Shown piece by piece: positions 1,140 to 20,104 of a stretch of 33,631 nt of DNA. Under the pieces are notes generated by a model. The model had not been told where the DNA came from. It searched no databases and was given only the letters and a program-made list of their open reading frames with translations. The stretch's first letter is position 1; each line of letters opens with the position of its first letter. The translations under genes and the position numbers were made by a program. The stretch spans positions 1 through 33,631 of the IMG/VR virus record IMGVR_UViG_3300034012_001224; one strand, given 5' to 3'. This DNA is from a virus.

Positions 1140-3755
1140 TTAATAACTTCCTGTCATAGACATTCGTTTAGATTGTTTTTCCCAATCTAATCCGCCAAAG
1201 TATATCGGCTGCATAACAACCATATACCCTAAAGCGTCAATTGGATCTTTACTAGCACCTTTTTGCCCGTCTTGTCCAGTCCATTCCTTTAAACTATAAA
1301 TTAAGTTCTGGCAAGACTCATGAATCATTAGTTTTGGATGGTTTACACCTTTTTCCATTGGTTTTTCTCTATCCCATGACAAAAGATCATTGATTAAGAG
1401 CACTCGCTCTTCAATTGGTAGGGCTGCTGATGGCGTAAAGATGAGCGGATTATCCGCCTGACCCAGCAAATCAAGCACAGTGACGCCGCCGTCTTTAGTG
1501 ATCGTCTCAGTTCCAGCGGTCCGAGGGTCAATCCAACGGTCCACGATCATCTCACGCTTATCTCCAGCTGTCTCTAGGCTCCAGATAAGCTCAGTGTACT
1601 CGTTCACCCCGCGGCCAGCACCTGCCTTCTGTGCCGGGCCAGCTCGTCCGTCGGCCTTATCACTTGGTAGCGCCCATTCCCCGTAGCTTTGGTCCGGCCA
1701 TTCACGGTAGACCCATAGTATACCGTGCTTGTCTACTCTAGCCCAGAGCATAAACCAGTTACGCGCACCGGCTGGGTCGATAGCCATGTAGTTGCTTCCG
1801 TCAGGAATAACCTCCTCTGCGTCACCTTTCCATAGGTTATGGTCACCAAACATGGGAAACTCGGAACCAGCCGTCTGATCGGCCCAACCATAAGCGCGGA
1901 TCTTAATGTCGTGGCTGGACCGGCCAGACAGCTCCTGTTTCATACGCTCCCAGTTGTTGTACGGGTTAAGCTCAGTATGATACCAGATGCAGGCATGTCT
2001 ACCATACAAGTTCTCCGCTTGATAGGGCATCTCGCCTTTAGGGACCGTTAGAACATTGTTATTGGGTAATAATGGAGATTTGCGGGTAGCCGTTACCTTG
2101 GCACTGTTGATGTACTCCTTCACGACCTGGGTGTAGCCTTGCACCGGCGTAAAGGTAACGATGAGCTTGCCGGACCGAGTGACTAGACGGTAGCGCAGGG
2201 TATCGAGCCAGTTCTGCGGGACAAGTTCATCGCACCAAACGTAGTCCACTTCACCACCTTCGACGACCTTAATGTCCTGGGCGTAGTTGAGAAACCAGAT
2301 CTGGTTGCCCATATACACCGCCGTATTGTCGCTAAACCCGTTCTTCTGGCTAAAACTAATCTGTGTATGATTAGTACGTTTGATGTTGCGGATCTCAGGC
2401 GGCAGATACTTGTAGAAGACGTTTTGTTGGGCTGACACACTGGTCATGTGGTTAGTGTGAAAGCACCAGATGCGGATGTTACGCTTGTTGTAGCGTTCCT
2501 TTACCCAGGACGGTGCTTGGCCATTAAGATCAGTCCCTACAAAAGCCTGAGCCATACGTTTGGCAGCGTACTCAGTTTTGCCTGAGTTGTGATGGTTTAT
2601 CCCTGCATAACTATAGTTATGATATACTGGAACGGTAAAATCCCAAACAATATCATTGCGTAAATAGGTTGTGCGGAATACTATTTCCCCCAATGAAAAC
2701 TTTATACATCTACCCAGTTGAGAAAATGCGCGAATGGATAGCCGAAGGAAAAACCCAACAATGGATAGGAGAACAACTTGGCATTCCAACAAAGCTAATT
2801 CAAAAAGCCTGCAAGAAGCACGGCATAAAGTGTCAACGAACCGGCCCACGTTCTGGAGAAGGCCACAAGAACTGGAAAGGACCGGAGAGGACTGACAAGT
2901 CTGGTTACATTCTTGAGTACAGTCCCAATCACCCATCTTGCTTAACGTCAAACTTGATCCGCGCTCAGAAGGCCAACGGGAAGTACTTTCGCAAGAAGAC
3001 TCATGTGCAAAAGCATCGTCTTGTAATGGAGCAAATGCTTGGCCGCTATCTTTCCAGCGAAGAAGTCGTTCACCATAGGAATGGCAACGTCCAAGACAAT
3101 CGCCCAGAAAACCTAGAGCTTTTCTCGACCAACGCTGAACACCTTGCAGCCACTTTGGTTGGCAAGACTCCAAACTGGACGGAACAGGGTAAAGCTGCGA
3201 TCCAACAGGCAATAGACCAAGTGGCCGCCATTCGCCGTCAGCACAGAGAAGCAGGTGCGCCGCTGAACAAGCAAACGAAACTCCGTAACTTGTTTCCACT
3301 TTGTACAGAGGAGCAGGATCTTTCGTAAATGGCACTTCAGCCTGACAGATAACCTCACGTCCGCTGTCGTCCATAGCCTTTACCCAGAAAGGCTCCGTAA
3401 TCGCGTCTATACGCTGTTTCTTGCCAGTCTTTGCGTCTGTTAAGATCGTCTCGCCAGCTAGGCATCTGTTCCCACCAAGGACGACCAGTTCATTATAGCG
3501 GTCTAGCAGCTTATCTGCATCCGGCCAGTGCGGCAGCTCGTGGCCATACCGCATAGGATCGTTCTGCTCAGCCTTAATCTTGTTCTCGCGCATCAGGAAC
3601 AGATCAAGCACCTTCTCCGGGCCAATGTTCTCGATCATCTCCAAACGCTGCCGCTTATTCGGCAACGGAAGCGTAGGATGCTCCTCAAGCTTATAGGCTA
3701 AAACCTTCTCTACAATTTCTTGATTTTTTTCATTCATACACGTTGACGTTTTCAC
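1140..3755 (-). CDS. terL: Terminase large subunit containing an in-frame intein
   Basis: The 871-residue frame is a packaging ATPase/nuclease of about 578 residues interrupted by a 293-residue intein (residues 98-390). Joining the exteins gives an intact Walker A loop, GGNR + SGKTEY. Further terminase features are a Walker B-like VDYVWCDE (503-510), a coupling motif TFTPVQG (534-540), and RNase H-like nuclease acidic positions at MAIDPAG (657-663), IVDRWIDP (737-744) and KDPIDALGY (836-844). Numbering uses the GTG at 3755; an ATG at 3737 would remove six residues and is equally plausible. There is no clear Shine-Dalgarno at either. A single base separates the stop from the portal start. Protein splicing should be required for activity, because the intein sits inside the ATP-binding loop. 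Confidence 0.9.
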   Translation of the reverse strand: MKTSTCMNEKNQEIVEKVLAYKLEEHPTLPLPNKRQRLEMIENIGPEKVLDLFLMRENKIKAEQNDPMRYGHELPHWPDADKLLDRYNELVVLGGNRCLAGETILTDAKTGKKQRIDAITEPFWVKAMDDSGREVICQAEVPFTKDPAPLYKVETSYGVSFACSAAHLLLCADGEWRPLGLLPVGSQLYPVPSSLESCQPKWLQGVQRWSRKALGFLGDCLGRCHSYGERLLRWKDSGQAFAPLQDDAFAHESSCESTSRWPSERGSSLTLSKMGDWDCTQECNQTCQSSPVLSSSCGLLQNVGRFVDTLCRASCRLFELALLECQVVLLSIVGFFLRLSIRAFSQLGRCIKFSLGEIVFRTTYLRNDIVWDFTVPVYHNYSYAGINHHNSGKTEYAAKRMAQAFVGTDLNGQAPSWVKERYNKRNIRIWCFHTNHMTSVSAQQNVFYKYLPPEIRNIKRTNHTQISFSQKNGFSDNTAVYMGNQIWFLNYAQDIKVVEGGEVDYVWCDELVPQNWLDTLRYRLVTRSGKLIVTFTPVQGYTQVVKEYINSAKVTATRKSPLLPNNNVLTVPKGEMPYQAENLYGRHACIWYHTELNPYNNWERMKQELSGRSSHDIKIRAYGWADQTAGSEFPMFGDHNLWKGDAEEVIPDGSNYMAIDPAGARNWFMLWARVDKHGILWVYREWPDQSYGEWALPSDKADGRAGPAQKAGAGRGVNEYTELIWSLETAGDKREMIVDRWIDPRTAGTETITKDGGVTVLDLLGQADNPLIFTPSAALPIEERVLLINDLLSWDREKPMEKGVNHPKLMIHESCQNLIYSLKEWTGQDGQKGASKDPIDALGYMVVMQPIYFGGLDWEKQSKRMSMTGSY
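2606..2621. promoter_or_regulatory. Perfect 16-bp palindrome upstream of the antisense endonuclease
   Basis: CATAACTATAGTTATG is its own reverse complement. It lies 71 bases before the endonuclease ATG and overlaps the intein block F codons (His-Asn-Tyr-Ser-Tyr-Ala). A TATACT box follows at 2623-2628, but no good -35 element is paired with it. The position suggests an operator or a protein-binding site for the endonuclease gene; that role is inference. Confidence 0.45.
2693..3328 (+). CDS. HNH homing endonuclease encoded antisense inside the terL intein
   Basis: A 211-residue protein from ATG 2693 (a TTG at 2669 would add eight residues). Residues about 10-45 form a helix-turn-helix (EWIAEGKTQQWIGEQLGIP), probably for DNA recognition. 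Residues 106-145 carry an HNH_3-type nuclease core: QKHRLVMEQ, then VVHHRNGNVQDNRPENLEL with His127-His128, Asn130, Asn132, Asn136 and Asn140. Phage HNH homing enzymes with this build cut intein-less or intron-less alleles so that repair copies the element. The gene lies wholly within the intein but on the other strand from terminase. Its last ~50 codons are antisense to splicing block B and the strands after it. No good Shine-Dalgarno is visible, and its promoter would have to lie within the C-terminal intein coding DNA. Confidence 0.88.
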   Translation: MKTLYIYPVEKMREWIAEGKTQQWIGEQLGIPTKLIQKACKKHGIKCQRTGPRSGEGHKNWKGPERTDKSGYILEYSPNHPSCLTSNLIRAQKANGKYFRKKTHVQKHRLVMEQMLGRYLSSEEVVHHRNGNVQDNRPENLELFSTNAEHLAATLVGKTPNWTEQGKAAIQQAIDQVAAIRRQHREAGAPLNKQTKLRNLFPLCTEEQDLS

Positions 3756-4849: not shown

Positions 4850-5064
4850 AGTACTAGCGACGGTAGCCGAAAAGAAGTGGCAGCGCAAGCTTACGCCCAA
4901 CAAGGGCCAGCTAACCGGGTGCCCGCTCGACACGCCCCCCACAGAACGTGTCTATTGCCCCCAGCGGCACAGCATGTACACACGCTGCCATACGCAGGCT
5001 AGGCCAAGCTACAAGCGTAGGGCAAGCGCGAAGGGGGCCAGTTGCAAATAAAAAATCTGAGGGG

Positions 5065-5095
5065 GGTTATGCGTCGCCGTCGCCGTCGTATAACC
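5065..5095. repeat. Hairpin with CGTCGC-repeat loop
   Basis: GGTTAT (5065-5070) pairs with ATAACC (5090-5095). The 19-base loop is made of CGTCGC-type triplet repeats. Confidence 0.4.
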
Positions 5096-5356
5096 AGGTG
5101 GAACCCCCGCCGCCCCTGTGGCCGGTTTTACAGAGTAGAATCGCCACTCCATATGACTTGTCTTGTATTGTGTTGTGGCCAACCTACTGAAGCGCAACAG
5201 CTTGCAAGGGACGGCCAAACGAGCGGTGACGGACCGGCCGGTTTGGTGCTCGGCGGACCACGATTGACGGGCTAGAACGGGCTGCCGGGCACGAGCCGCG
5301 GGGCTGTCGCGGGTGCGCGCGGTCATGCTATGTGACGCGGAGGCCGTAACGAATCG

Positions 5357-5383
5357 AATACCCTACCAAACTAGTCGGGTATT
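5357..5383. repeat. Hairpin or operator-like inverted repeat
   Basis: AATACCC (5357-5363) pairs with GGGTATT (5377-5383), a 7-bp stem with a 13-base loop, just left of the CTCCGC array. This is consistent with a dimer-binding operator. Confidence 0.4.
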
Positions 5384-5392
5384 GCCCACCGA

Positions 5393-5500
5393 CTCCGCTG
5401 CACGCTCTCCGCTCTCGCACGCACTCCGCACGCTCTCCGCATATTTGCGCACCGCTCCGCACATTTGCTCCGCCGCACGCACGCACCGCACGCACTCCGC
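5393..5500. repeat. Array of seven CTCCGC motifs (iteron-like)
   Basis: CTCCGC occurs at 5393, 5407, 5424, 5435, 5455, 5468 and 5495, all in the same orientation, often as GCACGC-x-CTCCGC. Two neighbouring copies are followed by AYATTTGC. Spacing is irregular at 11-27 bases. Clustered direct repeats next to divergent promoters are typical of initiator or regulator binding sites; that role is inference. Confidence 0.5.
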
Positions 5501-5612
5501 ATCACGTCCCACGATCGCATCGTCCATGCACTCACCGAGCCGCACGCACGCACCAGGCACATCACTTTTCTTTGCCTGTCGTTTCTTTTTTGTTGCGTAC
5601 TTATGCGGGGTG

Positions 5613-5620
5613 GCGTACTT
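5613..5620 (+). promoter_or_regulatory. Possible promoter of the plus-strand island (TAnnTTTG-like)
   Basis: TACTTTTG fits the Bacteroidota -7 consensus TAnnTTTG. A TTTG lies about 23 bases upstream, slightly longer than the usual spacing. If used, the transcript would have almost no leader before ATG 5631. It is weak evidence from one site. Confidence 0.2.
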
Positions 5621-5630
5621 TTGCACCCGT

Positions 5631-5885
5631 ATGACAACCCAATCAGCAATCCGCACTAAAGCAGACGCACAAGCACAGCTAAATGAGGCACTTAGCTGGA
5701 CAGATAACAACCCAATGAAAAAGCACTTGCTTCCAGTACTACAAAGCGAAGTTGCTCGCTTTGAGCAGCTTGAGGCGTCCGCAGCACGCGCGGCCGCAGC
5801 TAAAGCAAAGCACGAAGCTAAGTGCGCAGCTTACAACGCTTTGCCATTTTTTCGTCGCCTTTTCGCAACCAATCCCGCAGCATAA
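5631..5885 (+). CDS. Small hypothetical protein, 84 aa
   Basis: ATG 5631 was chosen over the upstream in-frame GTG/ATG codons because the DNA before it is the CTCCGC repeat array. The protein is helical and Ala/Lys-rich (SEVARFEQLEASAARAAAAKAK, given in two halves: SEVARFEQLEAS and AARAAAAKAK), probably a coiled coil. It ends in an aromatic/basic patch, LPFFRRLFATNP. It is the first gene of a plus-strand island of short genes that resembles a phage early region encoding host-takeover proteins. No family recognised. Confidence 0.5.
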   Translation: MTTQSAIRTKADAQAQLNEALSWTDNNPMKKHLLPVLQSEVARFEQLEASAARAAAAKAKHEAKCAAYNALPFFRRLFATNPAA

Positions 5886-5894
5886 ACAACCTCA

Positions 5895-5906
5895 AACACA
5901 CTACAA
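5895..5906 (+). promoter_or_regulatory. AACACACTACAA leader motif, copy 1
   Basis: An exact 12-base repeat ends 6 bases before ATG 5913. The same 12-mer precedes two further plus-strand starts (6262 and 6523), in place of a Shine-Dalgarno. Confidence 0.5.
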
Positions 5907-5912
5907 CATCCT

Positions 5913-6089
5913 ATGATCGCAAACATCGTTACCATCTCAACCTATTGCCCGCAATATCAAGCATTTGAGGAGCGCCAGATCTGGCTCAATCGTCGCTATC
6001 GTCTCACCTACAGAGGCGCGCAACGTATTGTCAGCAAAACACATCCGTCCTCGATCGTCACCCGCATCGAAACAGCAATTTACGCGTAA
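5913..6089 (+). CDS. Small hypothetical protein, 58 aa
   Basis: A short gene from ATG 5913 to TAA 6089, preceded by the AACACACTACAA leader. The product is basic (EERQIWLNRRYRLTYRGAQRIV) with Tyr and Arg clusters and a Thr-rich tail; it may bind nucleic acid. It has no recognised family. It is supported by its leader motif, tight packing with its neighbours (27 bases after the previous stop, 4 before the next start) and codon use like theirs. Confidence 0.5.
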   Translation: MIANIVTISTYCPQYQAFEERQIWLNRRYRLTYRGAQRIVSKTHPSSIVTRIETAIYA

Positions 6090-6093
6090 TCCT

Positions 6094-6237
6094 ATGACCA
6101 CCGAATCAATGAACGCACTCGAATACGCTGCGTATGTACGCCTTGCACTGATGCTCGCATCTGCGGGCTGCGTGCTCGTCACAGCATCACTCTGGGCGTC
6201 AGTCTATTGCGACTGGCGCAAAGTAAACCGCAAGTAA
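6094..6237 (+). CDS. Small single-pass membrane protein, 47 aa
   Basis: ATG 6094 lies 4 bases after the preceding stop. Residues about 13-36 (YAAYVRLALMLASAGCV and on through LVTASLWASVY) form one hydrophobic helix followed by a basic tail (DWRKVNRK), predicting an N-out/C-in single-pass membrane peptide. Function unknown; small early membrane proteins are common in phages. Confidence 0.5.
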   Translation: MTTESMNALEYAAYVRLALMLASAGCVLVTASLWASVYCDWRKVNRK

Positions 6238-6249
6238 ACCATCAACCCT

Positions 6250-6261
6250 AACACACTACAA
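6250..6261 (+). promoter_or_regulatory. AACACACTACAA leader motif, copy 2
   Basis: An exact copy of the 12-mer, directly abutting ATG 6262. Confidence 0.5.
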
Positions 6262-6444
6262 ATGAGATACAAAACACCAACAGCATGGAAAAAATCGGTC
6301 GTAATTAGCAAAACATTAACTGGATGGCATGCTATTGATCCGCAGGCGACTCGTTGCGCTAGCATACATGGCGCGCCGACTAGGCGTGAGTGCGTAGACT
6401 GGGTGCGCGGATCAAATAAATATCGTTTGAAAAAAGGTGCCTAG
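6262..6444 (+). CDS. Small basic hypothetical protein, 60 aa
   Basis: It begins at ATG 6262, directly after the leader repeat. The product is basic with Trp residues (TAWKKS, TGWHAID, ECVDWVRG) and reads like a small phage protein built on repeated short strands. The C-terminal YRLKKGA is positively charged. No family was recognised. The leader repeat is the best evidence that it is expressed. Confidence 0.5.
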   Translation: MRYKTPTAWKKSVVISKTLTGWHAIDPQATRCASIHGAPTRRECVDWVRGSNKYRLKKGA

Positions 6445-6454
6445 GTTCCCGCGC

Positions 6455-6496
6455 TGGTCACCCTACGGGGTGGCCAGATGGGAGCAAGGACGCTCC
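6455..6496 (+). promoter_or_regulatory. Two tandem hairpins in the leader of the GP88-like gene
   Basis: TGGTCACCC/GGGTGGCCA (6455-6463 with 6468-6476, one wobble) closes a TACG tetraloop, a very stable C(UACG)G hairpin in RNA. It is followed by GGAGC/GCTCC (6481-6485 with 6492-6496). No U-run follows, so these may be processing or stability elements, not a terminator. Confidence 0.5.
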
Positions 6497-6501
6497 AAAC
6501 A

Positions 6502-6513
6502 AACACACTACAA
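6502..6513 (+). promoter_or_regulatory. AACACACTACAA leader motif, copy 3
   Basis: Third exact copy of the 12-mer, 9 bases before ATG 6523. Confidence 0.5.
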
Positions 6514-6522
6514 ACAAACCAT

Positions 6523-7128
6523 ATGAATATCACCCTCTCACAGCCCTCTAAAATGCCTTGCCAAGGCTGGTCCGTACCCGCTCTCGCATGCAAAACCGGC
6601 TCCAAACTCGCACAGGTTGAGGGATCCGTCTGCCATGGCTGTTACGCTCTCAAAGGTTTCTACCGCATGCCCAACGTGCAGAGAACCTTACAAGCACGCT
6701 TGGCTCTAATGGAAAGCCCAGAATGGGTGCCAGCCATGATCGAGAAGATACGCGCAACGGAGAAAAGCGGTTTTTTCCGTTGGTTTGATTCCGGCGACCT
6801 TCAGTCGATCAAAACCCTGAAGGCAATCGTCCGCATTGCCATTGCATTACCTGAGATTCGCTTTTGGTTGCCAACGAAGGAGTATGGTATCGTTTCCGAG
6901 TACGTTGAGCTATTCGGCTCATTCCCTCCGAACCTCACGGTACGTCTCTCGGCCTATATGGTCGACCGGGCAGGCCCTAACAGCCTAGCTGAAGGCCTAG
7001 GCGTCACCACAAGCGAAGTCTCCTCCACAAACGGCACCTGTCCGGCACCTACACAAGGCAACAAATGCGGAGACTGCCGGGCATGCTGGAACAAAGACGT
7101 TCAAACTGTCGTTTATCGCTTACACTAG
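6523..7128 (+). CDS. GP88-like phage protein (Cys-rich)
   Basis: 201 residues from ATG 6523, chosen because it follows the leader repeat; the frame is open from 6478. It matches the mycobacteriophage gene-88 style family: an early SKMPCQGWSVPA, a GSVCHGCYALKGFYRMPNVQ block, FFRWFDSGDLQS, FWLPTKEYG, and a C-terminal Cys cluster (NGTCPAPTQGNKCGDCRACW). The conserved cysteines suggest a bound metal or Fe-S cluster. The biochemical role of the family is not known to me. It is the longest gene of the plus-strand island and is common in host-interaction regions of phages. Confidence 0.7.
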   Translation: MNITLSQPSKMPCQGWSVPALACKTGSKLAQVEGSVCHGCYALKGFYRMPNVQRTLQARLALMESPEWVPAMIEKIRATEKSGFFRWFDSGDLQSIKTLKAIVRIAIALPEIRFWLPTKEYGIVSEYVELFGSFPPNLTVRLSAYMVDRAGPNSLAEGLGVTTSEVSSTNGTCPAPTQGNKCGDCRACWNKDVQTVVYRLH

Positions 7129-7299: not shown

Positions 7300-7328
7300 G
7301 CCCCTAGGTTTCGCGCCTAGGGGCTTTT
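7300..7328 (+). terminator. Intrinsic terminator between convergent transcription units
   Basis: GCCCCTAGG (7300-7308) pairs perfectly with CCTAGGGGC (7316-7324) around a 7-base loop, followed by TTTTCTTT. The complementary strand has TTTT after the same stem, so it may work in both directions. It ends the plus-strand island and faces the last gene of the minus-strand operon. Confidence 0.85.
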
Positions 7329-10198: not shown

Positions 10199-10413
10199 CG
10201 GTCACCCCTCCATTCTTGCATGGCTGACACAGCAAACGCTGCGCTGGCCCAAAATAGGATGAGCAATACTATAGCCTCCCATAGCTCCTCCGCAAAGTAA
10301 GCGATCGCAAGTCCGTCAAAGACGGCGAGGGCAGCAAACGCCCACAGGTATGGCAGCGCCTTGTTTGTGTTGTCAGGTTCGATCTTCATGTAACTTTGGT
10401 AGTGTTTATTCAT
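10195..10413 (-). CDS. Small two-helix membrane protein, 72 aa
   Basis: ATG 10413 overlaps the helicase C-piece stop by 8 bases. Two hydrophobic segments, about residues 20-41 (LPYLWAFAALAVFDGLAIAY) and 46-64 (AIVLLILFWASAAFAV), predict a hairpin in the membrane. Function unknown. It lies between replication genes and a run of small accessory genes. Confidence 0.55.
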   Translation of the reverse strand: MNKHYQSYMKIEPDNTNKALPYLWAFAALAVFDGLAIAYFAEELWEAIVLLILFWASAAFAVSAMQEWRGDR

Positions 10414-10990
10414 TGTGGAATGTTGCTGTCTTGCCTGTAAAGCGTAAGTTTGTGCTTACGCCACACGGGCCGTTTCGTTGGATGGGTATCCCAATCTCAC
10501 GGAACTCTGCGTCATCGGACAGCTTCACAACCATAACGGCTGTAGCGTCTTGTCCGATTGCACGACTTTCGCGAGCTTTACCCTGCTCATTTAGTTGCGT
10601 AATGCTGATCACAAGGCAACCTAATTCGATGCCAAGTAAGCGTAAGCTCCGGCTCACCTCGGCCACCTCACGCTCACGGCTGCTATCCTTGCCAAGGTCG
10701 CACCTGACAAGCTGGATGTAGTCGACAAACAGCACACCAAGGCCGTCCGGCGACTTCGCCATAGCCCGTGCAGTGGCGCAAATGTTGGCGATGTCGTAGA
10801 GATTATCCCGCACCACCAAGCGGCTGTTGTTAAGCTTCTGGATGGCACTGTGGACGCCCCTGATGTCGCGCTCATGCTTTGCTCCTTCAGCGAGCGCACG
10901 CAGGCTGACGTTGCCTAGCCGGGCGACGAGACGGTCGATGATCTGGTTAGCTGGCATCTCAAGCGAGATGACGAGTATTCCTTTGTTCAT
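10406..10990 (-). CDS. DnaB-type replicative helicase, C-terminal piece
   Basis: 194 residues matching the RecA-like domain of DnaB from just after Walker A to the end: GILVISLEMP (4-13, the strand and helix that follow the P-loop), Walker B GLGVLFVDYIQL (83-94, Asp90), the sensor strand ISITQLNEQG, an RESRAIGQDA loop, and an arginine-finger-like QRNGPCG (171-177). It has no P-loop of its own. The P-loop is at the end of a separate ORF 2.3 kb upstream (13311-14021). ATG 10990 overlaps the end of methyltransferase frame B by 32 bases. Together the two pieces total about 430 residues, a normal DnaB length. Confidence 0.85.
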   Translation of the reverse strand: MNKGILVISLEMPANQIIDRLVARLGNVSLRALAEGAKHERDIRGVHSAIQKLNNSRLVVRDNLYDIANICATARAMAKSPDGLGVLFVDYIQLVRCDLGKDSSREREVAEVSRSLRLLGIELGCLVISITQLNEQGKARESRAIGQDATAVMVVKLSDDAEFREIGIPIQRNGPCGVSTNLRFTGKTATFHNE

Positions 10991-13003: not shown

Positions 13004-13318
13004 TTATGGGTTAATTTCAAGCGCCCCGCAGCCGACGATCTTGCCAGCTCCGTCACGGATGAGCTTTGTTGGACTAGCCAAATCTGTCCGCTTGGGTAGT
13101 GCTGTGCGCACATAGCCAGGCACAATGTACAGCACACCTTCCACAGGGTCAGGCAGGTTGCTCACGCGAGCGTCCTTACAGCACATGATGGGGACACCAT
13201 CAACGTCTGCCACCTTGCTGAGATGGCTATGCACCTTTACGCTGTAGCCGCTGGGTTCAATCACGCCATATCCTGTGATGATAATGTCGTGAGGGGTTAG
13301 GTTTATAAGCTTATTCAT
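13004..13318 (-). CDS. Conserved phage protein (NLTPHDI type), 104 aa
   Basis: It begins INLTPHDIIITGYG, then PSGYSVKV, and continues through VSNLPDPVEGVLYIVPGYVRTALP to a Gly-rich C-terminus. This resembles short beta-rich phage proteins starting NLTPH..I, which are widespread in phage and bacterial genomes; their function is not known to me. ATG 13318 overlaps the stop of the helicase N-piece. It is the first gene of the 2.3-kb block lying between the helicase pieces. Confidence 0.6.
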   Translation of the reverse strand: MNKLINLTPHDIIITGYGVIEPSGYSVKVHSHLSKVADVDGVPIMCCKDARVSNLPDPVEGVLYIVPGYVRTALPKRTDLASPTKLIRDGAGKIVGCGALEINP

Positions 13319-14021
13319 TTATTAGGTTTGCAATTATGTTGAGCGCAAGCATCGTCTTGCCGGACTTAGTTTCTCCGCCGATGACCACAAAGTCACCAAA
13401 GCGTATCGGACAGATGTTGTCGATAGCAGAATATCCAGTCTTTATCCGCATGGACTCGTCGTCACCTGTCTCGTAGCGGGTCAGTGCATTGAGCAGGAGC
13501 GCCTTAGTGTCCATCACCTTGGGCGGAGCAAGCTCACGAGACAGCCCCTCGACTTTCATCACCACATCGCTCAGTAGCTCCGGCGTCTGCACGGTGGCGT
13601 CGCTAATAGCCATTAGCGTTTCGTAAGCGACATGCTGCAAGGTGCGCCGTTTGGCCGTGTTCTTGACGATATCTACAAGGTCGCCAATCGCTGCCGCAAT
13701 AGGCATCAGCGTGTACAGATCGCTAAGTTGGTGAAACTCTGTGCCCGGCAGCGTCTCGCGGACCTTCTCAAATACCACACGGATCTCCGAGCTGGCATTG
13801 CGTGACTGTTGCTGCAAGATGATCTCGCATACTCGGTGACTGAGCGGATCGAAGATGTCGCTAACCTTGAAGTTTTTCTCGCTGATGTGATGCAAGAACA
13901 CTTCAGGATGATTAAGCGCAATCGACGCTATGCCACGCTCAGCCTCACTCGCCGTTGGCACCACCGTGTCAGGCGGCAACTCCACCGGCCTGCGTCTACC
14001 AGCTTTCTTGTGTGCTTCCAT
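13311..14021 (-). CDS. DnaB-type replicative helicase, N-terminal piece with Walker A
   Basis: 236 residues. An N-terminal DnaB domain (EAERGIASIALNHPEVFLHH near residue 26, SHRVCEIILQQQ, then the linker helix) leads to the start of the RecA-like domain: RIKTGYSAIDNI, FGDFVVIGGETKSGKTMLAL with Walker A at 215-223. It stops 13 residues after the P-loop, at LINE. The missing Walker B, sensor and arginine finger are in the ORF at 10406-10990. The break falls between the P-loop helix and the next strand. No intein-like residues are present at either end. ATG 14021 overlaps the upstream gene by 26 bases. Confidence 0.85.
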   Translation of the reverse strand: MEAHKKAGRRRPVELPPDTVVPTASEAERGIASIALNHPEVFLHHISEKNFKVSDIFDPLSHRVCEIILQQQSRNASSEIRVVFEKVRETLPGTEFHQLSDLYTLMPIAAAIGDLVDIVKNTAKRRTLQHVAYETLMAISDATVQTPELLSDVVMKVEGLSRELAPPKVMDTKALLLNALTRYETGDDESMRIKTGYSAIDNICPIRFGDFVVIGGETKSGKTMLALNIIANLINE

Positions 14022-16526: not shown

Positions 16527-16780
16527 AGCTTGTAGTGTGTAGTAAACGCAGTTCTGCCGTCAGGTGTCTTGTAAAGGAACTTTTGTTTAGCCGCCTCCTT
16601 TTGAGTTAGAATGTTGAGCGTAGCGGTTCTGCCAATCTTCAGTCGTTGAGAGACTTGAGCAAGCGTGTACCACCCAGGAGGTGCAAACTGTACCTTGATA
16701 TTTTCCGCAAGCTGGGAAAGCCAATCCCCCTCTACAATGGCAGCTTGAAGCTTCCGTCCTTTAATTCTTTTGTCAGCCAT
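16523..16780 (-). CDS. Small HTH protein, 85 aa
   Basis: ATG 16780 overlaps the phosphoesterase end by 49 bases. A basic N-terminus (MADKRIKGRKL) is followed by a helix-turn-helix (YTLAQVSQRLKIGRTATLNIL, residues 38-58) and a C-terminal strand. A transcription or replication regulator is likely. The longer overlap is unusual in this operon; a later start would cut into the N-terminal helix. Confidence 0.55.
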   Translation of the reverse strand: MADKRIKGRKLQAAIVEGDWLSQLAENIKVQFAPPGWYTLAQVSQRLKIGRTATLNILTQKEAAKQKFLYKTPDGRTAFTTHYKL

Positions 16781-17484
16781 ACAATTGTCTCGTTGTCAGT
16801 ATATTCGCCCCACGCCCAGCCTCTACTCCAGGCGGTGGTTGCAATTCTATTCTCCGCATAGCCAGCCATTTCGGGATCTCCAAGCCACCCAACAGAGTAG
16901 CCAGTGACACCTTTAATGCGACGCCCTTCAGCGATTTGTACACGGTGGATGTGCCCCATGACAAGCTTGGTGTATTTGCCGTGACACATACGCTCTGCGC
17001 TGTCCCTGAGCGCCTGCTCACTGTGCAGGTAGCCGTGCTGGAAGAGAGCGTCGCCTAAACCAACAAAGCCGGTCTTAAGCTTGTAGTCGTACACCTTGCA
17101 CTTGAGCGCCTTGGCTCGGTCGTGGATCTGGTGGTACACGCGAGTCGCAAGCGCCGAGATAATCGCCTTGGGGTGACTCATTAGCGTCACCAGCCGGGCC
17201 TCGTGATTTCCGAGCAGGTAGTGCTGGGGACGGAGAGCGGAGATGAAAGCGAGACCGTCGTTAAGGTCAGCCTCTGGATCAACAGTGGCATCGTGGCTGT
17301 CGTTAGTGATAGCGCCCGAGCGCAGGCACGTCATGTCGATGGCATCACCAAGATGCAGCACCGTGTCCGGCTTCCATCGGTCACGAAAGCGGAGCACTTC
17401 CTTGAGTACGGCCTGATCGGCCATGAAGCCGTGGCTGCATGATACTGCAAGGAAGCGCTTCCACTTCCGTGTGATGTTCGCCAT
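16732..17484 (-). CDS. Metallophosphoesterase
   Basis: 250 residues. Calcineurin-like motifs are HLGDAID (40-46), LLGNHEARL (the GNH[DE] motif, near 92-100), HGYLHS and MGHIHRVQ (the GHxH motif, near 175-182). The first motif, normally DxH, reads SCSHG (14-18), with Cys where Asp is usual. Family members cleave phosphomono- or diesters, including nucleotides or nucleic acids. The protein lacks a signal peptide. It is the first gene of the replication block, next to the small lysine-rich gene at 17488. Confidence 0.8.
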   Translation of the reverse strand: MANITRKWKRFLAVSCSHGFMADQAVLKEVLRFRDRWKPDTVLHLGDAIDMTCLRSGAITNDSHDATVDPEADLNDGLAFISALRPQHYLLGNHEARLVTLMSHPKAIISALATRVYHQIHDRAKALKCKVYDYKLKTGFVGLGDALFQHGYLHSEQALRDSAERMCHGKYTKLVMGHIHRVQIAEGRRIKGVTGYSVGWLGDPEMAGYAENRIATTAWSRGWAWGEYTDNETIVWLTKELKDGSFKLPL

Positions 17485-17487
17485 AGG

Positions 17488-17640
17488 CTATTTGCGCTTG
17501 GCAGCAGCGGCTTTCTTCGCAGCCTCACGTTGGACGCTGTACGCGATAGCGACGGCCTGCTTCTGCGGCTTACCTGCGCCGATCTCGCGCTTGAGGTTTT
17601 CGGTGAACGCTTTCTCGGATGCGGATTTCTTCAGTGGCAT
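17488..17640 (-). CDS. Small basic protein, 50 aa
   Basis: ATG 17640 to TAG 17488. The sequence is lysine/alanine-rich (MPLKKSASEKAFTENLKREI, then GKPQKQAVAIAYSVQREAAK). It matches the short phage and bacterial proteins of the type KK..S..TF..N...E...GKPQKQAVAIA, whose role I do not know. It follows the ejection-like protein by four bases and precedes the phosphoesterase. DNA-binding is plausible from its charge. Confidence 0.65.
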   Translation of the reverse strand: MPLKKSASEKAFTENLKREIGAGKPQKQAVAIAYSVQREAAKKAAAAKRK

Positions 17641-17644
17641 AGTG

Positions 17645-20104
17645 TTATTTTACAGGTGCTGCGTTGAATTTCTTAAGCTGCTTGTTTGCTGCTTTAATTG
17701 CTTCGCCTTCTGTGTTGAATACACTAATTGTGCCGTCTGGTGCAAGCAGCCTGAATTTGCCGCCAGTCTTTTGAAGAATTTTAAACCTCGTAGCAGGATC
17801 AGATTTGATCGACGCATTTGGCAGCACCTCAGCAACAACTCTGCTTGGCTCAAACGCAGACTGAGGTTGTGCCATATCGTATGGCGACATGAGCGCTGCT
17901 TTAATCCAACGCTCTGCCTTCATCGGCTCATACGGCAACTTCATTAATGCAGCGTACTTCTTGAATGCACTTGATTTTGCTACACCTGAAATGCTGGAGT
18001 TCGGAACTGTTGACTTTGATGCCGCATCAGATGCCAGCTTTTGAAACTCTGGGCTCATAAAGAGTTTTCCAGTTGCAGCGATACGGTCTTTAGATCCACC
18101 AATTGCGGAGAACAACTTAGACCCAGCCCATGCACCGGGAGCACCACCGATAGATGCTCCAATGGCAGCGCCGGTTGCTGGGTTCAAGATGCGATCAACG
18201 AGTGTTTGCGCTCTCAACTCTTGGATCAACGCTTGATTAGCTTTGCCAGTCGAGCTTACAAGAGAACGAGCTTCTGTGACTCGTTTTGAGATTTCATAAA
18301 GCCCTTTAAGCGCCTTTGCAGCTTCAGGCTCGATGATGCCTTGAATCTTGGACATCAAAGGACGTTCCTTTTGTATCCCGTCATACAATGCTCTAAACTT
18401 TGCAAAGCTAAACTGTCCGCCAAACTCAGCGCGAGTCTCGGTAGACAAGTCAGATATTGCCGTAAGCAACGTGTTTTTTTGCAAGTCTTGCGGAACAACA
18501 TTTAGCAGCTTTGTTAAACCCTCAGAGCTGCCCTTGCCGGTCTTTGTAATAGACTGACGGATTAGTCCGGCAATACTGCCTTCCGTGTCCTTGCCGAAAG
18601 CATCAACAATAGTGCGCTCAAGGTTTTTCTGCTTGGCGTAAAGCGCGTTTGCCGCAAGTAAGTCATCTTTAACGGCTGCTCCCGCAAGCTGCTCAACTGC
18701 ATTAAGCTGATCTTGAGTCAGGGCGTTATAAAGATCACTTAGTATCTTTGAGTCTAGACTACCATAGGCATTCTGCTTCCCACGCAAAGCGCCCCGTATG
18801 TCGCCTTTCTCGCGTACAAACCTGCCATACGTCATGGTTTCATTATTCACCATTTTGTAAAGGCTTCTTTCTTGAGATGTTAGAGCGTCAACTCCGCCAA
18901 CTTCTTTAACAGTCTCATCGAGTAGCTTTTTTACGTTAGGCAATCCTGGATTACCTTCTCCAGAGATAACAGTGTTCTTTGGAATGGAGCTGTTAATCTT
19001 TTCGTAAGACTCGCCAGTAATCTCATCAAGCTTGTCTCTTGTCTTTTTTAGCGCAGCCTTAACGTCATCGGACACCTCAGATAGACTGTTGTTTGCACCA
19101 ATACGCTCCATCAGATCATCAGCCTGCTGCACAAACTGCGCTTGCTGCGTCTTCCATGCTGCCTCTGCTTCAGAACCAGAGATCCCGCGAGACGTGCCTA
19201 CAATGGCTCGCATCTGCGGGTTATCACTAAGTACATCAATTGGCACTTCGATGCCTAACTCTTGCGCTACTGCAAGTGCTTCTGGGTTTACCCTAGCAAG
19301 CTGCGCAAGTTCAGTCTGCGCCTTTGTTGCGCCTAATCCGCTGCCGGTAGCCTTGTATATAATTGATCGCAAGTCTTTAGCTGCAACTTCTGGCGCAACC
19401 TCTGGAACAGATGCCGCGATATCTTTAGGGATAAACGACTTTCCTTGCAGTAGCCGCTTCGCCCCAGGAATGGCAGCTCCGAGTATTTTAAATGCAGCCT
19501 GAGTTACTCCACCAAAAGCGGCTGCCGTAGGTATTTCCTCTACGTTAAACTCGCCGCCTGTAGCAGCCTGAGTTGCTTCGATGCCAGCTTGAGTTAGACC
19601 CGCTGCGCCTGCTGCACCAAGAATACCCTGAACTGCACCAGCAGGGCTAAACACCCTGAGCCCTGCCAACGCTCTTGGAATATCACTTCCCCTGAACCCC
19701 GGCTTTAAGGCATACTCTTTGTCGTCAATTGCAGACTTGAAGATGTAGTTTCCTTTAGGGTCTTGTTTTACTTGAACATCTGGAAAGTTTGACTTGATGA
19801 TTTTAGCAGTTTCATCAGCATCGGCAAACATAGTGCCAAGTGAAGTCTTAAGAGCCGGAATGCCTTGAGACAATGAAAACTCAGGCATGTTTCCACGCCA
19901 GTCTGGCAGAGCCTCAATCTCTGGAGTGCTTCTTGCCTTGCCGGTGATTGACTCAGAGATACGAGCTAACAACCCCGCGTCTTCCGCAGGCTGCTGACTT
20001 GCTTGCGCCTCATGCTCAGACGAGGCCCATTGATAGGCCGTATTTTCATCTGGAGCATCGACCTCGTAAGTTGCACCGGCAATGTCTACTTCAAATGTTG
20101 GCAT
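17645..20104 (-). CDS. Large internal virion / ejection protein candidate, 819 aa
   Basis: The first ~30 residues (MPTFEVDIAGATYEVDAPDE) form a short beta domain seen at the start of many phage virion proteins. Gly/Ala-rich hydrophobic stretches follow (LGAAGAAGLTQAGIEA, about 160-175). Most of the rest is helical with long coiled segments. A second Gly-rich segment, AIGASIGGAPGAWAGSKLF, lies near 655. This build matches P22- or T7-like ejection proteins that cross the host envelope with the DNA. It shares a TAATG start with the upstream gene, one of a run of four such proteins. No enzymatic motif was seen. Confidence 0.55.
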   Translation of the reverse strand: MPTFEVDIAGATYEVDAPDENTAYQWASSEHEAQASQQPAEDAGLLARISESITGKARSTPEIEALPDWRGNMPEFSLSQGIPALKTSLGTMFADADETAKIIKSNFPDVQVKQDPKGNYIFKSAIDDKEYALKPGFRGSDIPRALAGLRVFSPAGAVQGILGAAGAAGLTQAGIEATQAATGGEFNVEEIPTAAAFGGVTQAAFKILGAAIPGAKRLLQGKSFIPKDIAASVPEVAPEVAAKDLRSIIYKATGSGLGATKAQTELAQLARVNPEALAVAQELGIEVPIDVLSDNPQMRAIVGTSRGISGSEAEAAWKTQQAQFVQQADDLMERIGANNSLSEVSDDVKAALKKTRDKLDEITGESYEKINSSIPKNTVISGEGNPGLPNVKKLLDETVKEVGGVDALTSQERSLYKMVNNETMTYGRFVREKGDIRGALRGKQNAYGSLDSKILSDLYNALTQDQLNAVEQLAGAAVKDDLLAANALYAKQKNLERTIVDAFGKDTEGSIAGLIRQSITKTGKGSSEGLTKLLNVVPQDLQKNTLLTAISDLSTETRAEFGGQFSFAKFRALYDGIQKERPLMSKIQGIIEPEAAKALKGLYEISKRVTEARSLVSSTGKANQALIQELRAQTLVDRILNPATGAAIGASIGGAPGAWAGSKLFSAIGGSKDRIAATGKLFMSPEFQKLASDAASKSTVPNSSISGVAKSSAFKKYAALMKLPYEPMKAERWIKAALMSPYDMAQPQSAFEPSRVVAEVLPNASIKSDPATRFKILQKTGGKFRLLAPDGTISVFNTEGEAIKAANKQLKKFNAAPVK

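Follow-up and report, generated by a model that had tools for sequence, protein, structure and literature searches.

The closest described counterparts of the element analyzed here are the Start-Associated Sequences (SAS) of Cluster K mycobacteriophages, 13-bp asymmetric repeats that lie just before ATG codons (Pope et al. 2011, PMC3203893). As presented in the parts of that paper that deal with them, SAS copies share one orientation, precede genes of different families, belong to the non-structural half of the genome and are rare in the host. They number 11-19 and stand 3-7 bases from the start, and the downstream genes lie >50 bp from the previous gene (PMC3203893). Their consensus, GGGATAGGAGCCC, contains the Shine-Dalgarno (SD) core AGGAG, pairing with 16S rRNA is possible, and a function in translation was suspected (PMC3203893); the role was still called unverified in the relevant passage of a 2025 paper (PMC12699233). 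Upstream of about half of the SAS sites lies an imperfect 17-bp inverted repeat, the Extended SAS (ESAS), for whose folding into mRNA hairpins the authors, where they discuss it, see little support (PMC3203893). Initiation independent of SD is described for Bacteroidota, whose A-rich "Kozak-like" starts combine low structure and adenines before the AUG with a retained anti-SD and favour single positions (A-3, A-6), A at -3 being favourable in F. johnsoniae (Baez et al. 2019, PMC6847099, in the sections on start context). Some Verrucomicrobia, too, are SD-scarce and keep CCUCC intact, according to a 2024 survey (PMC10783764, in its treatment of that group).

The DNA analyzed here, hereafter the window, comprises an entire virus record (33,631 bases); a search of 50,697 named phage records with bases 1-25,000 as the query gave no near match. 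It carries a short repeated leader in one rightward operon, within an island of small cassette genes around a gene of the GP88 family:

5163-5174, minus strand: near copy of the leader (11/12), AACACAATACAA, in a conserved intergenic stretch
5895-5906, plus strand: leader copy 1, exact AACACACTACAA, ending 6 nt upstream of ATG 5913
5913-6089, plus strand: small cassette gene, an ORF of 58 aa (MIANIVT...) with no Pfam match
6094-6237, plus strand: small gene of 47 aa (MTTESMNALEYAAY...), 4 nt past the previous stop, lacking a leader in the window
6250-6261, plus strand: leader copy 2, exact AACACACTACAA, adjoining ATG 6262 (spacing 0)
6262-6444, plus strand: slot-3 cassette gene of 60 aa (MRYKTP...); relatives have unrelated genes in its place, or none
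6502-6513, plus strand: leader copy 3, exact AACACACTACAA, ending 9 nt upstream of ATG 6523
6523-7128, plus strand: GP88-family gene (PF17338, Pfam E 1.9e-25), the commonest gene behind the leader
16530-16541, minus strand: near copy (11/12), 3 nt before ATG 16526, probably no true instance

A first-pass annotation of the sequence had singled out three identical 12-mers 6, 0 and 9 bases before the plus-strand ATGs 5913, 6262 and 6523. These coordinates are confirmed, and the repetition lies well beyond chance: the window holds five matches with at most one mismatch, against a mean of 0.16 and a maximum of 2 in shuffled sequences. The same annotation listed the copy before ATG 16526, and the 11/12 match in a coding end is indeed present, but it is probably not a leader: the upstream gene is still coding at this place (codons Thr-Leu-Gln), and relatives differ in the first bases of the match, for which reasons we did not count it. 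The minus-strand match at 5163-5174 had gone unmentioned. A-rich leaders do occur elsewhere in the genome, as had been remarked (e.g., ACTAACAAA-ATG on the minus strand), but mixed with other leader types. The slot of copy 1, after "CAACCTCA", is common to the window and its relatives. Two further features flank the cassette operon: low-complexity CGCACGCACTCCGCACG-like repeats at 5401-5570, in the intergenic region ahead of it, and a terminator-like 10-pair stem at 7300-7324, the meeting point of the plus-strand and minus-strand operons.

Scanning IMG/VR for the leader followed by 0-12 bases and ATG returned at least 120 stretches, many of them in unrelated viral contigs, so that the string alone is not diagnostic; among those listed, six aligned with the window by blastn, five over long stretches (L009, L021, L029, L032, L091) and one over a single 282-base stretch (L037). 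Relatives were gathered by three proteins: a conserved 194-aa protein (55 loci), the GP88 protein (at least 80) and a DnaB-like protein (at least 80). The close set, with at least 85% to one of the three, was reduced to 73 contig pieces totalling 1,012,405 bases (1.01 Mb). On the strand of the GP88 gene these contain 79 exact leader copies, of which 78 are followed within 14 bases by an ATG opening at least 30 codons, a count that is not one of independent cases because some pieces are overlapping parts of the same contigs (e.g., L172, L300) or a near-identical phage from another sample (L190). By comparison, 31 permuted or reversed 12-mers gave 0-2 copies each, and the opposite strand has one exact copy (L141), likewise before an ATG. 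Shuffles and permuted controls together rule out chance or A-rich composition as the origin of the repeats. Minus-strand copies at two mismatches were also rejected: they are mostly coding, and permuted motifs precede ATG there too (pooled 27%).

Allowing at most one mismatch, and with repeats and six coding artefacts removed, we obtained 77 distinct sites, 55 of them exact; the artefacts, dropped before this count, were 6 of the 10 "sites" of family 1, in which AACACACTAGAA encodes Asn-Thr-Leu-Glu. The 77 sites precede 22 unrelated families of small genes (single linkage, E 1e-3; six families have a single member), at a distance from the ATG of 0-12 bases, mostly 8-11, with peaks at 8-9 and 11 nt. 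Classified by a text rule, 41 follow a stop codon with CGCAAGTAA-type sequence, 24 follow a hairpin and 12 have another context. Each genome carries 1-4 copies, in a chain of small genes that ends with or near GP88. A role across the whole genome is not supported: in each of eight related records of 40-44 kb, the exact copies are confined to 1-2 clustered sites.

Because these sites were preselected at no more than one mismatch, information content and family counts computed from them inflate the conservation of the leader. This is avoided by a comparison in which GP88 genes were picked by protein similarity alone (83% limit), giving 23 distinct close genes. All 23 have the leader within 15 bases of the ATG, 16 exactly and 7 with one mismatch; L216, just outside the limit at 82.6% GP88, has no clear copy. 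Among the 23, mean pairwise identity reaches 0.95 for the leader, against 0.79 for the coding sequence and 0.47 for fourfold sites, and 0 of 591 coding 12-nt blocks are as conserved as the leader. The view of the leader as a phage-group element tied to start codons is thus borne out, by the 78 of 79 copies before an ATG ORF as by the 95% identity before GP88, and an absence of conservation is excluded by the search of related phages and by the GP88 comparison alike. Only the close group has the exact 12-mer: the 56 distant loci have no repeated leader of the AACACACTACAA kind, and distant relatives show only loosely similar A/C-rich spacers, so a sequence-specific recognition could not be universal.

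The host is probably a member of the Verrucomicrobiota: among genomes, the DnaB-like protein finds its best match, at 69% identity, on a 13-kb contig of a Pedosphaera MAG (G001). This assignment is weakly supported because that contig is itself phage-like. As a host-wide motif the leader was rejected, occurring at chance level in G001 (two one-mismatch matches versus seven for the reversed control).

Neither the leader genes nor the phage at large appear to use SD sequences. SD-like 4-mers at -20 to -4 occur in 0 of the 77 leader sites, in agreement with the original remark on the three genes, and in 9.8% of 492 minus-strand phage starts, a level not above that of control windows (10.8% and 11.8%). 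The Pedosphaera MAG gives 7.7% of 142 starts (controls 8.5% and 12%), and SD-using phages with GP88 give 60.7% of 56 starts by the same test, which takes as starts the first ATG of ORFs of at least 150 aa. Several GP88 phages (L239, L241, L244, L245, L248, L251, L253, L254) repeat an extended SD leader (TTGGAGGACA-like) before several genes, a parallel to the SD-free repeat described here. With four 16S sequences from relatives of the Pedosphaera MAG, the leader pairs no better than 300 permuted leaders do (fractions at or above it 0.58, 0.79, 0.21 and 0.99); GGATCACCTCC is present in three of the four long 16S loci searched and was not found in L354. A canonical SD leader complementary to the 16S 3' end was accordingly rejected, both on the SD-like count and on the pairing. 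The start region is instead poor in G (2.4% at -25 to -1 of the leader sites) and predicted to be open: the unpaired probability is 0.92 for the GP88 leader and 0.84 for its start region, versus 0.51 for 150 minus-strand starts. Adenine is not preferred at -3, where the 77 sites have C 53, A 20, T 4 and G 0.

These data also bear on the idea that the leader is a promoter element of the phage or host polymerase. It is repeated upstream of genes and specific to a phage group, as such an element might be. Yet its spacing to the ATG can be 0, too close for the -10 element of a leadered message; a sigma-70 scan was at chance (1 found versus 1.4 expected), and no conserved partner lies at a fixed upstream distance, the information in the flanks being mostly <1 bit. 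We regard a promoter as very improbable.

Compared with SAS, the leader is likewise a short asymmetric repeat in one orientation, a few nucleotides before starts (0-12 versus 3-7), that precedes genes of different families, 22 here. SAS are rare in their host; for the leader, the figure is chance level in one Pedosphaera MAG, from a phylum that is the probable but weakly supported host. It differs in belonging to other phages, in its unrelated consensus, AACACACTACAA, which has no SD core (0/77 SD-like) and no 16S pairing beyond permuted controls, in its 1-4 rather than 11-19 copies, and in the gene gaps of the window (27, 24 and 78 nt), which do not keep to >50 bp. Because the SAS consensus and SD core are absent, we do not file it as SAS; by analogy, it is best read as an SD-less counterpart of Cluster K SAS, SAS-like as far as position goes. 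With Bacteroidota starts it shares the lack of an SD, the low structure, the upstream adenines and a 16S rRNA that keeps the anti-SD, but it is a fixed 12-mer at variable spacing, with C at -3.

We therefore favour, at somewhat better than even confidence, the interpretation that the leader is a genus-specific, start-associated element for SD-independent initiation which, at the junction of slots 3 and 4, also forms the 3' part of a bistable-RNA module. On this view, a stretch that is unpaired and free of G lies just upstream of the start codon, with the leader as its invariant core, and would allow the small, swappable genes of one rightward operon to be initiated independently of an SD. A fixed sequence implies a recogniser, and ribosomes (through S1 or mere openness) or a dedicated phage factor would be the ones to use it. 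If so, the leader adds a separate example of SD-free starts, here marked by a fixed 12-mer, that is relevant to how ribosomes find SD-less starts outside Bacteroidota, and a shared 5' leader suggests how small accessory genes of phages stay expressible while they are exchanged.

Fixed sequence invites a second interpretation, in which the leader is an operator in the mRNA, bound by a phage protein or a small RNA that controls the genes as a group, and not a landing site for ribosomes. Twelve fixed bases are more than openness alone requires, and the copies stand before unrelated genes. Moreover, a conserved, apparently non-coding stretch of the window (5022-5256) holds TTGTATTGTGTT at 5163-5174 on the plus strand, the complement of the leader with one mismatch, and recurs in 14 of the 73 related pieces, some of which are from one contig (L157/L307; L172/L300) or near-identical (L190). 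This stretch may serve in regulation or encode a small RNA. On the other hand, the putative complement always carries the mismatch, no candidate binder has emerged, and the distance from leader to ATG varies from 0 to 12. Overall, an operator appears rather unlikely to us.

The exchange of genes around the leader suggests yet another role. The family of the 6094-6237 gene (family 5) has a leader in some phages; the gene of L162 with the same start peptide as 5913-6089 has a variant leader; and L021 lacks both the 6262-6444 gene and one leader copy. This swappable arrangement had been missed in the first-pass annotation, as had the RNA element upstream of copy 3. The leader might then be mainly a short homology for exchange or deletion of cassettes, its proximity to ATG following simply from where cassettes begin. 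Leader copies do bracket exchangeable genes, as in L021, the same gene families are found behind different upstream contexts, and the genome encodes a PD-(D/E)XK/exonuclease VIII-like protein. Against this, genomes with a single copy retain the leader, the constant placement within 12 nt of the ATG is left unexplained, and one-mismatch variants differ between the copies of one genome (e.g., L191, L209, L280), which argues against recent homogenisation. We consider homology as the main role quite unlikely.

Upstream of copy 3 the leader is preceded by an RNA element, arranged as CTAG-GTTCCC-(3)-P2 hairpin-(2)-GGGAGC-(6)-GCTCC:

6445-6450, plus strand: 5' arm of P1, GTTCCC, directly past the TAG stop at 6442-6444; supported by covariation
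6454-6477, plus strand: P2 hairpin, arms 6454-6463 and 6468-6477; 9 of 10 pairs with two-sided changes in 40 sequences
6480-6485, plus strand: central strand GGGAGC, partner of 6445-6450 (P1) or, through 6481-6485, of 6492-6496 (P3)
6492-6496, plus strand: 3' arm of P3, GCTCC; supported by covariation

Window positions 6425-6530 have a predicted fold of -43.1 kcal/mol (z -5.5). In 24 close sequences P1 and P2 are paired in 99.5% of the alignment cells, and both sides of a pair have changed in 32 cells versus 14.1 after shuffling (0/500). With 36 sequences such double changes number 6 in P1 and 5 in P3, where 0.4 is expected for each (0/500 each). With 40 sequences, in an alignment fitted to the structure that includes four elements held out of the model, 12 of the 16 P1/P2 pairs show double changes, in 92 cells versus 24.2 (0/500). 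The raw sequences agree: each of the larger central-strand classes, GGGAGC, GGGTGC, GGCAGC and GGCTGG, finds its best partners in its own arms, upstream as well as downstream, the minor classes GGAAGC (n=2) and GGGAGT (n=1) not being cleanly separable from GGGAGC. Since P1 and P3 both co-vary and the classes match their own arms on both sides, both mutually exclusive helices are maintained. P1 has the lower predicted energy in 26 of the 28 scored elements, 8 of the 36 having been left out for a loop under 3, and in the window the two folds are at -28.7 and -27.8 kcal/mol. A bistable RNA at the junction of two cistrons, whose central strand can pair either way, is thus well supported by comparative sequence evidence. 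That a conserved RNA has both folds under selection adds to the interest of the leader.

By the text rule the element precedes 24 of the 77 distinct leader sites, copy 3 among them, and we take it that the hairpin is not part of the core role of the leader because it is confined to these. The 24 distinct GP88 sites divide into 10 with the hairpin, 11 with the stop-codon context and 3 others. A covariance model of the 24 close sequences (R1) gave 34 full-length matches in the 73 close sources, some in overlapping pieces, as well as matches in distant phages and in the Pedosphaera MAG contig. In a negative control of 100 unrelated viral loci R1 reached at most 24.1 bits, for which reason the elements of L328 (22.3) and L225 (19.9) rest on a second model, R2, and on their architecture. 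R2 recovers four elements outside its training (L225, L226, L324, L322). In 35 of 36 elements P1 starts 0-9 nt past the stop of the upstream gene, taken as the longest ORF, L148 being ambiguous, and three of the four held-out elements begin within 3 nt of the stop, that of L324 at 14. The next ATG is 70-84 nt from P1 in 34 of 36, and the spacer from P3 to ATG measures 18-28 nt in 35 of 36, with 4% G; distant phages also have an A/C-rich spacer, though with a sequence other than the 12-mer. Among 194 genomes from the phylum to which G001 belongs, the element appeared only in the viral-like contig of G001 itself. One distant phage, L329, has two junction elements on the minus strand (17434-17504 and 17713-17785), with arms GGGAGC and GGGTGC, respectively. 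Rfam gives no match on the window at the gathering threshold, nor any within 5000-6600 when E is relaxed to 5. An integron-like attC reading of the hairpin seems unlikely: a GTTRRRY-like end is unconserved, and Pfam identified no integrase among 20 window proteins.

The hairpin could also be merely terminator-like, or a 3'-end stabiliser of the upstream gene, unrelated to the leader. Its position at the upstream stop codon, its association with slot-3 genes and its absence from 53 of the 77 leader sites speak for this. But no U-run follows it, and the holding of the P3-ATG distance at 18-28 nt, together with the conservation of both arms of the alternative fold, goes beyond the needs of a terminator. 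We see this as possible, if on the unlikely side.

Within the favoured interpretation the module would run, in order, from the stop codon through the bistable RNA (P1+P2 or P2+P3) and an A/C-rich spacer with the leader to the ATG. Its function would be either processing or ribosome-gated switching, both proposed from position and covariation. In the model that we rank first, an enzyme such as one of the RNase III type would cleave close to the internal loop that separates P1 from P2, after which P2 would cap and protect the 3' end of the upstream message; P3 could then form and cap the 5' end of the downstream message, of which the leader would be the 5' UTR. As a second choice, a ribosome terminating at the abutting stop would cover the 5' arm of P1 and tip the RNA to P3, and the junction would thereby sense translation of the upstream gene. 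The leader is predicted to be open in both folds, so neither model directly explains altered initiation. The element bears directly on the earlier suggestion that mRNA stability is involved.

Early mRNA of phage T7 has RNase III processing sites between genes, formed by intergenic hairpins with an internal loop. The junction element is likewise an intergenic hairpin with an internal loop between cistrons, and compatible with such sites as far as its modelled structure goes; it differs in its competing third strand, which is not a known feature of the T7 sites. Like ESAS, it is an inverted repeat upstream of a subset of start repeats (24/77). In contrast to ESAS, its P1 and P2 pairs co-vary strongly, a third strand competes, and it adjoins the upstream stop codon. 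Its arms are of 6 and 10 bases. We found no phage intercistronic stop-codon junction with mutually exclusive stem-loops in the open-licence papers searched. It is conceivable, though we put this forward tentatively and below even confidence, that the junction belongs to a class of RNA switch between phage cistrons that has not been described before, in which three strands compete at a stop, the fold being set by the terminating ribosome or an RNase, and which is coupled to an SD-less 12-nt landing leader as an interchangeable 5' connector of cassettes.

Two other genes of the phage deserve mention. The large terminase subunit gene (1140-3755, minus strand) has an in-frame insert of 293 aa (2586-3464) at Walker A (GGNR / SGKT), which begins with CLAGETIL and ends with HHN and looks like an intein by sequence, although Pfam Intein_splicing is below threshold (E 0.24) and NCBIfam intein-containing models match weakly. 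An HNH endonuclease gene (2669-3328, plus strand) lies in the middle of the insert on the opposite strand, while the terminase sense frame stays open. In relatives the site is empty or holds a 396-bp mini insert, the 879-bp insert of the window, or a different one of 942 bp with its own opposite-strand HNH ORF. Nothing on an intein-like insert with an opposite-strand HNH gene was evident in the portions of the literature covered, and the insert may merit more attention than the leader. The DnaB-like helicase is apparently split into two minus-strand genes about 2.3 kb apart, 13311-14021, which ends just past Walker A (GGETKSGKTMLALNIIANLI), and 10406-10990, which opens with the following part (NKGILVISLEMP); L260 has the same split.
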